Assembly: GCA_024710565.1 (NCBI GenBank)
Contig: JANJUN010000024.1
Span: 1 to 43,615, forward strand
Origin: Candidatus Altimarinota bacterium
Lineage (GTDB): Bacteria; Patescibacteriota; Gracilibacteria; BD1-5; UBA6164
Length of the DNA: 43,615 nucleotides
Reading direction: 5' to 3'
A program made the position numbers and the translations under genes. Positions 1,853 through 43,615 of the stretch are shown here, piece after piece. The first letter of the stretch is position 1. Each line of letters opens with the position of its first letter. A model generated the notes under the pieces. It saw only the letters and a program-made list of their open reading frames with translations, was not told the origin of the DNA and searched no databases.

Positions 1853-1967
1853 TTCAAATGGAGCCATTAACGGGAATTGACGCCCTCCCGGGTCAGTCAT
1901 CCGTTTTGAAAGCTCTTATTCATCGCTCTCAAATTTTTGCAAAAGCAAAAACCCTCCATTCAATTCC
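1853..1967 (-). repeat. tRNA-tail element 1 (downstream of tRNA-Thr)
   Basis: Read on the minus strand, the element starts with GGAATTGAATGGAGG (1967-1953). A small hairpin TTTTTGC/GCAAAAA follows, then a 9-bp stem UUUGAGAGC/GCUUUCAAA closing the loop GATGAATAAGA (1914-1924), then ACGGATG..GACCCG. It ends in a 28-bp exact copy (1853-1880) of the 3' end of the neighbouring tRNA-Thr and its flank (2014-2041), including the encoded CCA. The stem contains a G-U pair only if the minus strand is the RNA, the same strand as the tRNA. No ORF is present. It is homologous to the element at 42750-42860 and shares the hairpin with 26109-26281. Function is unknown. Confidence 0.75.
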
Positions 1968-1977
1968 TAAGTATGTA

Positions 1978-2010
1978 TTAAAAAAGTCTCCTTTTTGAGG
2001 AAACTTTTTT
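1978..2010 (-). terminator. Terminator after tRNA-Thr
   Basis: Stem AAAAAGTTTCC/GGAGACTTTTT on the minus strand, with one mismatch and a T-run. It lies between the tRNA and tail element 1. Confidence 0.75.
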
Positions 2011-2019
2011 CTTTTCAAA

Positions 2020-2095
2020 TGGAGCCATTAACGGGAATTGAACCCGTGACCTCTCCCTTACCATGGGAACGCTCTACCAACTGAGCTATAATGGC
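2020..2095 (-). tRNA. tRNA-Thr (anticodon GGT)
   Basis: 76 nt. The acceptor stem GCCATTA/TAATGGC, the anticodon loop ATGGTAA and a T-arm with TTCAATTC are all present. The discriminator is T and CCA is encoded. A TATAAT-like -10 follows the rpmA terminator about 15 bp upstream of the gene, so the tRNA may have its own promoter. Confidence 0.93.
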
Positions 2096-26108: not shown

Positions 26109-26281
26109 AATGGTGGGTGATATAGGATTCGAACCATGTCCGCTTCCGCTTCGCTCCAGCACTCTTACGGAGTAACTCGGACTGCGAAGCTCTTATTCAT
26201 CGCTTCTCGTCTCGAGTTTCTTTCCTCATCGCCCCCTGCTTACGGGGAACATATACTCAAATAACCATTTTCACTACAATT
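26109..26281 (-). repeat. tRNA-tail element 2 (downstream of tRNA-Val)
   Basis: On the minus strand, after the tRNA-Val terminator, about 145 nt of GC-richer sequence leads to a 26-bp copy (26110-26135) of the tRNA-Val 3' end including CCA. It holds the hairpin GAAGC/GCTTC closing loop GATGAATAAGA (26191-26201), the same loop as in the elements at 1853-1967 and 42750-42860. Other small hairpins (CTCG/CGAG, CCCC/GGGG) are visible. The 5' part differs from the other two elements: GGAATTGAATGGAGG is missing. A composition of around 50% GC contrasts with the surroundings. No ORF. Confidence 0.7.
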
Positions 26282-26334: not shown

Positions 26335-26411
26335 TGGTGGGTGATATAGGATTCGAACCTATGACCCCCTGCTTGTAAGGCAGATGCTCTCGCCAACTGA
26401 GCTAATCACCC
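26335..26411 (-). tRNA. tRNA-Val (anticodon TAC)
   Basis: 77 nt. Acceptor GGGTGAT/ATCACCC, anticodon loop CTTACAA, T-arm ATAGGTTCGAATCCTAT, encoded CCA. It lies at the end of the rRNA operon, 16 bp after tRNA-Arg. Confidence 0.95.
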
Positions 26412-42614: not shown

Positions 42615-42691
42615 GTCAGTGTAGCTCAGTTGGTTAGAGCGCGGGATTCATATCCCCGAGGTCGGTGGTTCAATTCCACTCACTGACACCA
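42615..42691 (+). tRNA. tRNA with CAT anticodon (elongator Met or Ile2)
   Basis: 77 nt. Acceptor GTCAGTG/CACTGAC, anticodon loop TTCATAT, CCA encoded. G1-C72 rules out the initiator. Position 31-39 is an A-C mismatch in the anticodon stem. One of this gene and the one at 31698 should be Ile2. Confidence 0.9.
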
Positions 42692-42705
42692 TAAGTAAAT
42701 AATTT

Positions 42706-42738
42706 AAAAAACACTTCCTCCCAAAAGAAGTGTTTTTT
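42706..42738 (+). terminator. Terminator after tRNA-CAT
   Basis: 12-bp stem AAAAAACACTTC/GAAGTGTTTTTT with T-run, between the tRNA and tail element 3. Confidence 0.8.
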
Positions 42739-42749
42739 CTTTCTGTGAT

Positions 42750-42860
42750 GGAATTGAATGGAGGTTTTTTGCGATAGCAAAAATAAAATTGCGATGAATA
42801 AGAGCAATTTTAACGGATGGCCGACCCGTAGAGCGCCAATTCCACTCACTGACACCATAA
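42750..42860 (+). repeat. tRNA-tail element 3 (downstream of tRNA-CAT)
   Basis: It starts GGAATTGAATGGAGG (42750-42764), then the hairpin TTTTTGC/GCAAAAA with loop GATA. Next is the 8-bp stem AAAATTGC/GCAATTTT closing loop GATGAATAAGA (42793-42803), then ACGGATGGCCGACCCG. It ends in a 24-bp exact copy (42837-42860) of the tRNA 3' end and flank (42671-42694). GGAATTG at the 5' end can pair with CAATTCC in the copied tRNA tail, closing the whole element. It is the same design as element 1 across the window and on the opposite strand. Confidence 0.75.
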
Positions 42861-43211
42861 TATTCTTTTGGTCAATTGAATGAGAATATTTTTCTTCTTC
42901 AATAAAGACCTGATGAAATAGCGGAAACTTAGGAATAAAGAAATAAAATAATAACTAATAAAAATTAATCCCCTCCCTAGAAAATAATATAAATTTTTTA
43001 GGGAGGATTTTTTATCTAAAAATTTAATAATATGTAAAAATGATGAAATTTCTATAAAATTTTATTAAAAATGTTAAGAATTTTTAACTCTTAACTACTC
43101 TAGCCCCAAAAATAATAGTATTATGATAATATAAATAATAAAGTAAATAAAAAAAGTGAAGAAAAAACGTTTTATATATTTTTATACAAAACGTTTCAAT
43201 TCATACATATT
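42861..43211. other. AT-rich gap without genes
   Basis: Three hairpins are visible and no convincing ORF: AATATTCT/AGAATATT around 42860-42890 (T-run on plus), a stem with CCTCCCTAGAAAA/TTTTTTAGGGAGG around 42967-43012 with a T-run, and AAACGTTTT/AAAACGTTT at 43158-43188, which terminates the minus-strand gene at 43212. Confidence 0.6.
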
Positions 43212-43493
43212 TTATTTCTTTTTGAAAGGGCTCATGCTGGAACCAGAAATAGCAAAAATACCATTTACTAATCATTTTACACCTCCAGAAGCTAATCAAA
43301 TAGCAACTTTTCCAGGAGTAATTTTTTCTTTATCTAATTTCGCTTGTTCAATAGCAAGATCAATTTGTGCCAAAGCTACTTTATATTGTTGCTCTGTAAT
43401 ATTTCCTGCCCCCCATAACTCTAATAATCTTCTTTTTTCGTTTAAAATTCATTGAGATTCTCTATTTTTTTTGATATCTGATAATATTCCCAT
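43212..43493 (-). CDS. Small hypothetical protein, 93 aa
   Basis: Not recognised. The N-terminal 60 residues are helical (LNEKRRLLELWGAGNITEQQYKVAL resembles the SHOCT-type short C-terminal domain pattern of L-x-x-G-x-I-T/S-x-x-E-F). They are followed by a Gly/Ala/Ile-rich, mildly hydrophobic stretch (VAIGLASGGVKGLVNGIFAI) that may associate with membranes. Three glycines are TGA. Its own promoter (43523-43550) and terminator make it a single-gene unit. Confidence 0.75.
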
Positions 43494-43522
43494 AGATATT
43501 TGATTATAAATATAATAATTGT

Positions 43523-43550
43523 TTTATATTTATTTTTTACATATTGTCAA
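43523..43550 (-). promoter_or_regulatory. Promoter of the 93-aa gene
   Basis: TTGACA (43545-43550) and TATAAA (43523-43528), 16 bp apart. Confidence 0.75.
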
Positions 43551-43615
43551 TATTTAAAAAATTCTAAAAATTCTAATATTAAACTGGACACTTTGAGTAT
43601 AATAAAAATTATACT

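Follow-up and report, generated by a model that had tools for sequence, protein, structure and literature searches.

Behind three tRNA genes in the window (the whole stretch of DNA that was analysed, 43,615 nucleotides) lie short elements that resemble mobile DNA of a new sort, very small and without genes. Our main reading, to which we give a probability of roughly 0.6, is that they are site-specific, non-autonomous mobile elements whose insertion point in tRNA (and tmRNA) genes lies between T55 and C56.

Elements behind tRNA genes in the window and in the lineage

The features of the three loci, as annotated in the window, are the following:

2020..2095, minus strand: intact tRNA-Thr(GGT) (ARAGORN; Rfam RF00005)
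within 2020..2095, minus strand: tRNA-Thr positions 56-76, the first of the two tail copies
1968..2019, minus strand: left segment from tRNA-Thr to the core, with a terminator-like hairpin and a T run
1961..1967, minus strand: 5' strand of helix P1, GGAATTG, the 'guide', complementary to C56-62 of tRNA-Thr (CAATTCC)
1934..1951, minus strand: helix P2, TTTTTGC-TTTT-GCAAAAA (covariation)
1905..1933, minus strand: helix P3, with the conserved loop GATGAATAAGA
1880..1897, minus strand: helix P4, ACTGACCCGGGAGGGCGT (covariation)
1873..1967, minus strand: whole 95-nt core behind tRNA-Thr (covariance model R1, 105.4 bits)
1853..1880, minus strand: tRNA-Thr 3' end repeated exactly over 28 nt (T55, C56 to CCA, TTTGAA)
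26335..26411, minus strand: tRNA-Val(TAC) (ARAGORN)
26136..26270, minus strand: variant, longer core behind tRNA-Val
26110..26135, minus strand: 3' end of tRNA-Val in copy, with identity starting 4 nt ahead of C56
42615..42691, plus strand: tRNA-CAT with an element (ARAGORN)
42692..42749, plus strand: left segment with terminator hairpin, behind tRNA-CAT
42750..42843, plus strand: core behind tRNA-CAT (R1, 109.2 bits)
42837..42857, plus strand: copy of tRNA-CAT positions 56-76

An earlier note on this DNA had described an element behind tRNA-Thr ending in an exact 28-bp copy of the 3' end of that tRNA and the same arrangement at tRNA-Val and tRNA-CAT, all of which we could confirm (copies at window 1853-1880, about 26135..26110 and 42837-42857), the Val core being a longer variant. 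The Thr and CAT elements are clear homologues of each other in a DNA search, and the P3 hairpin GATGAATAAGAGC (26201..26189) is the sole feature that the Val element has in common with them. Among the CAT genes the arrangement is present at the one at 42615-42691 and not at the others. Unrelated or variant cores with an identical tail-copy layout were also observed at tRNA-Val in genomes G038 and G039 and, in degenerate form, in G006, and a short variant core at this tRNA reads TTGGATGAGAAGTTTATGCCCCTTGTGGGTAAATCC.

In the genome (1.23 Mb) a DNA search identified more copies after the Leu-TAG, His and Gln tRNA genes, and a tandem array on contig C20. The local 3' end is repeated at most 420 nt downstream in 6 of the 34 tRNAs of this genome (for His the first half only), five of these repeats being exact over 21 nt; mismatched pairings of tRNAs and downstream regions, used as a control, reached zero mismatches in 0.7% of cases, some being adjacent tRNAs, and chance as the source of these tail copies is excluded. 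The region 42856-43615 likely belongs to an array made up of tRNA-CAT, one unit and at least 750 bp of other sequence, inside which the window ends, and contig C20 begins with further cores bearing the tRNA-CAT tail. Since tRNA-CAT and the gene flanking C20 are neighbours in genome G001 (about 1.4 kb apart), C20 is likely the far end of the tRNA-CAT array, with an assembly gap between the two. At G000:C26:37450-40940 the tRNA-Gln element lies within a perfect inverted duplication, probably an assembly artefact.

Beyond the window the layout recurs, always in the same orientation, at 64 tRNAs belonging to 22 kinds and also at tmRNA; of the 48 genomes of the family 21 have it, with for instance about 10 of 30 tRNAs concerned in G039 and 13 of 30 in G053. 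A covariance model built from an alignment of six cores recovered about 71 places in 21 of the 48 family genomes and had no matches in 29 further genomes of the order, and in a scan of 84,980 species genomes matches were confined to this Gracilibacteria lineage. The named homologues are all from Candidatus Gracilibacteria or 'Patescibacteria', and TGA is decoded as glycine (open frames under table 25). No Rfam family matched the element even at E 5, barring chance-level matches to unrelated families.

Junction, guide strand and fold of the core

The identity between tail and upstream tRNA begins precisely at C56 in 62 of 64 cases, and 39 of the 64 cores having an upstream tRNA carry an exact 21-nt tail. 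The earlier observation that each copy is that of the local tRNA holds at every tRNA kind. The 5' strand of P1 follows the local tRNA as well: it forms on average 6.38 of 7 pairs with C56-62, compared to 4.95 after permutation (maximum 5.30 in 1000 permutations), and 3.72 versus 2.42 pairs at the four variable positions. Decayed tails mostly retain C56-62 as well as CCA and the adjoining flank, the changes falling in the acceptor strand between them. In displaced Leu tails (L065, L075, L077, L087, L102 and L110) this strand is altered in parallel (TGGGC to TCTAGC, TCTCGC or TCTGGC), with C56-62 and CCA retained.

Left segments appear alike, by eye, for the same tRNA across genera, suggesting that some insertions are old and were kept vertically; a similarity of the left segment to the region upstream of the tRNA, or a complementarity to the tRNA, was not found. 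Another small repeat, TTAAGTTTCTCTTGC..GATTGAC..GTCAAGAATCGGAAGGAAAGTTA, was observed in genus g4 (L229, L233, L093, L098 and L110), where it starts directly after the CCA of tRNAs or after element tails and also interrupts some cores.

The core consists of four helices, of which P1 closes the structure and encloses P2, P3 (loop GATGAATAAGA) and P4. Among 73 distinct sequences 95.8% of the cells are paired and double changes occur in 358 cells, compared to 86 in shuffles, and sliding the structure along the alignment abolishes the covariation signal. The P3 loop covaries too (GAUGAAUAAGA / GACGAAUAGGA; the loop in relatives is GACGAATAGGA), in a manner that fits tandem G.A pairs flanking a U-A or C-G pair. 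A small peptide starting from an ATG in this loop was considered and rejected, as many cores carry GACGAA and no ATG.

When G-C and G.U pairs in P2-P4 are taken together, 2.6% are G.U, versus 10.5% in the tRNA stems of three of the core-family genomes (Fisher p 9e-10), and the overall share of G.U in P2/P3 is 0.5-0.6%. This scarcity suggests pairing at the level of DNA rather than RNA and weakens a reading in terms of RNA alone, as support and not as proof, because the G.U deficit is partly compositional and the A.C counts, and with them the G.U:A.C ratio, are dominated by a single P4 column (which holds 16 of the unpaired P4 cells).

The fold could also belong to an RNA with a function linked to the tRNA, in regulation or processing, in which P1 pairs with the tail copy or with the T-arm of the upstream tRNA and so switches the folding of the tRNA. 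The strong covariation, including that of the loop, agrees with this, as do the cores retained at Leu-CAA and His in several species and the persistence of positions 56-62 in decayed tails. We nevertheless consider it unlikely: the cores are patchily distributed, many are separated from the tRNA by a terminator, some copies are broken (L110, L111 and L118), a core also occurs in a non-tRNA repeat (see below), and both the scarcity of G.U and the correlation with a recombinase point elsewhere. Among the options that the note had offered, a new class of RNA ending in a tRNA-like tail is a weaker alternative.

Probable insertion, spread between tRNAs and candidate mobiliser

Empty sites in close relatives, the comparison that the note had called for, were found in genus g4, where orthologous Ser, Gly, Ile and Tyr tRNA loci are filled in some species and empty in others; at filled loci the original downstream flank comes after the second tail copy. 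When same-genus pairs at the same tRNA were left out, the nearest relative of a core was found at a different tRNA of the same genome or genus in 37 of 50 cases (13.4 expected from shuffling) and at the same tRNA of another genus in one of 50. Cores are thus alike within genomes and genera and not by kind of tRNA, which indicates that they spread or were homogenised between tRNAs while their ends stayed local. Four cores (two in G024 and one each in G022 and G054; class B) lie within a dispersed non-tRNA hairpin repeat, copies of which occur without a core in the same genome or in relatives. The class B unit has its own left end, so that CGATTAC-AAA-GTAATCG forms P1 as a hairpin, and is inserted ahead of a T-loop-like CRAATT. 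The host repeat, TTTAGGGGGAGCAA...TTGCTCCCCCTAAGACCCC (e.g. L338 in G024:C77 and L343-L350 in G023), is present in dozens of copies in G023, G024 and G012 and sometimes houses a core. Together with the T55/C56 junction and the local tails, the empty orthologous sites, the spread between tRNAs within lineages and the same core in a non-tRNA repeat support the earlier suggestion that targeting makes use of the tRNA 3' end or rebuilds it.

Such targeting could alternatively duplicate the target, in a way that resembles target-primed reverse transcription or casposase-like integration: a P1-guided, precise nick between T55 and C56 and a variable second nick past the CCA would be followed by entry of spacer and core, and repair would duplicate the 3' end. 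A local copy at any tRNA would then be accounted for by a unit that needs no tail, and so would the copied blocks of genus g5, which run sharply 10-23 nt beyond the CCA, and that of tRNA-Val in G037, which runs about 59 nt beyond it (terminator included; 80 nt overall). We regard this route as rather improbable, however, since no duplication is seen at class B insertions, which have a left end of their own, CGATTAC, and since reverse transcriptase is unrelated to the cores (10 of 21 genomes with and 13 of 27 without them), on which ground a target-primed retroelement was also rejected as mobiliser.

Units occur in tandem in L067 and on contig C20, and the tmRNA of G042 (L277:3344-6340, G042:C27) is followed by two cores 2.8 kb apart, between which an ATP-grasp gene and a gene with a Beta-lactamase2 domain are found. 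The cargo unit at this tmRNA, and the position of core plus displaced tail where the far end of an island would be, are what could be expected if the cores were attachment-site scars of deleted large tRNA-integrated islands or phages; dozens of insertions are, however, uniformly short (about 116-166 bp) and the viral contigs searched contained no core, making this very unlikely. Motif matches in IMG/VR were discarded as chance matches inside coding sequence. An ordinary tandem duplication of tRNA genes with later decay, which the note had kept in view and which a locus resembling a tRNA pseudogene copy (Lys in G053) recalls, is hardly credible given one conserved family of four-helix cores behind 22 tRNA kinds, with no visible remnant of tRNA positions 1-55.

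For the insertion between T55 and C56 that we favour, the mobile unit would begin at C56 in one tail copy and comprise the remainder of that tail, the spacer and the folded core up to its last nucleotide. On insertion the tail of the incoming unit would complete the tRNA and the old tail would be displaced behind the core. The core would serve as a folded recombination site, probably of single-stranded DNA, in which P1 may read the 7 nt beside the crossover by pairing them with the internal guide. A core could possibly gain the tail and guide that match another tRNA by gene conversion after mis-insertion, or by templated repair. Spacer and core are too short to encode an integrase, in agreement with the note. 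A tyrosine recombinase would presumably act in trans, for which a 273-aa protein of the IntI/XerA type is the best candidate.

Two classes of tyrosine recombinases were found, a Xer-like one in nearly every genome and this 273-aa class in 10 of 48, eight of which have cores; 13 genomes hold cores without it. Proteins of the 273-aa class exceed the cut-off of NCBIfam NF040815 (site-specific tyrosine recombinase/integron integrase) and fall short of that of TIGR02249; the nearest solved structure is V. cholerae IntI4. Genomes with the gene contain 36 cores where 22 are expected (within-genus permutation, p=0.002), an association tested after the pattern had been noticed and on incomplete assemblies. 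No core was found adjacent to the IntI-like genes on the chromosome, and the enzyme is a putative mobiliser.

The IntI/XerA-type gene also lies in two integron-like loci (L382:8762-12560 in G039:C13 and L381:8540-9110 in G053:C14), together with a conserved attI-like block (..TAGTTAG) and repeated sites TGCTAACGTCCGCAAC...GTTGCGGACGTTATG, which by their consensus read like classical attC sites; four of these occur in G039, about 1.02-1.3 kb apart. With the gene beside attC-like sites, G039 and G053 seem to have true integrons. The cores themselves were rejected as attC sites: they differ in inner structure and cross over at T55/C56, the attC-like sites having a GTT crossover. An IS200/IS605 mobiliser was rejected as well: the Y1 transposase is missing from most core-rich genomes (none in g4, G000, G053, G007, G054 and G043) and found in a few other core-bearing ones.

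As a tentative proposal, the elements may represent mobile DNA of a new kind, miniature cassettes of folded DNA in which a 7-nt guide reads the universal T-loop half (C56-62) of nearly all tRNAs and which an IntI/XerA-like recombinase moves in trans, with the tRNA set as distributed attachment sites and sometimes loaded with cargo (as at the tmRNA of G042).

Comparison with known systems

tRNA genes are classic landing sites for mobile DNA, and every integrase known to us is restricted to one or a few tRNAs. An element behind 22 tRNA kinds with a locally matched guide makes a change of integration specificity directly testable, the core is a candidate recombination site recognised by shape, and Gracilibacteria gain integron-like systems. 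In the literature searched, from which most subscription papers were absent, we found nothing on integrons or tRNA-linked repeats in Gracilibacteria, Absconditabacteria or Patescibacteria.

The principle of restoring the tRNA is described in the reports on T-loop integration, e.g. by Ms6 (PMC1762012), and on Islander (PMC4383910). With the Islander-type tRNA/tmRNA islands and prophages (tyrosine integrases) the elements share insertion in the T-loop half, restoration of the tRNA by the element's 3' end and a displaced tRNA fragment that marks the far end; they differ in having no integrase gene, in their size (about 160 bp), and in that a single core family, its guide strand covarying with the local tRNA, serves many kinds of tRNA. 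MITE-like repeats are likewise small, dispersed, gene-less and patchy, but our elements are specific to a single position in tRNAs and have local ends. Structured RNAs in Rfam also have a conserved, covarying multi-helix fold, yet the cores match none of these families. IS200/IS605 elements and their miniatures resemble them in hairpins, in a guide that pairs with the cleavage or target sequence and in the lack of target duplication (class B), and are set apart by Y1, by another target and by the three hairpins plus 7-nt guide of the core.

As in integron cassettes, a folded site closes the unit, with a closing stem of about 7 bp and the crossover at its inner 3' side, and units occur in tandem; a possible further parallel is the IntI-like recombinase of associated genomes, which scores below the cut-off of TIGR02249. 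Unlike attC (GTTRRRY, G/TT crossover), the junction is T55/C56 and the two nucleotides before C56 in the copy are never TT (0 of 64); P2, P3 and P4 lie inside P1 where attC forms a single imperfect hairpin (R''-L''...L'-R') with extrahelical bases; tRNA genes take the place of attI, and these genomes have real attC-like sites apart from the cores. The proposed mechanism is like tRNA-restoring integration and topologically like attC recombination, and by the features tested it is a member of neither.
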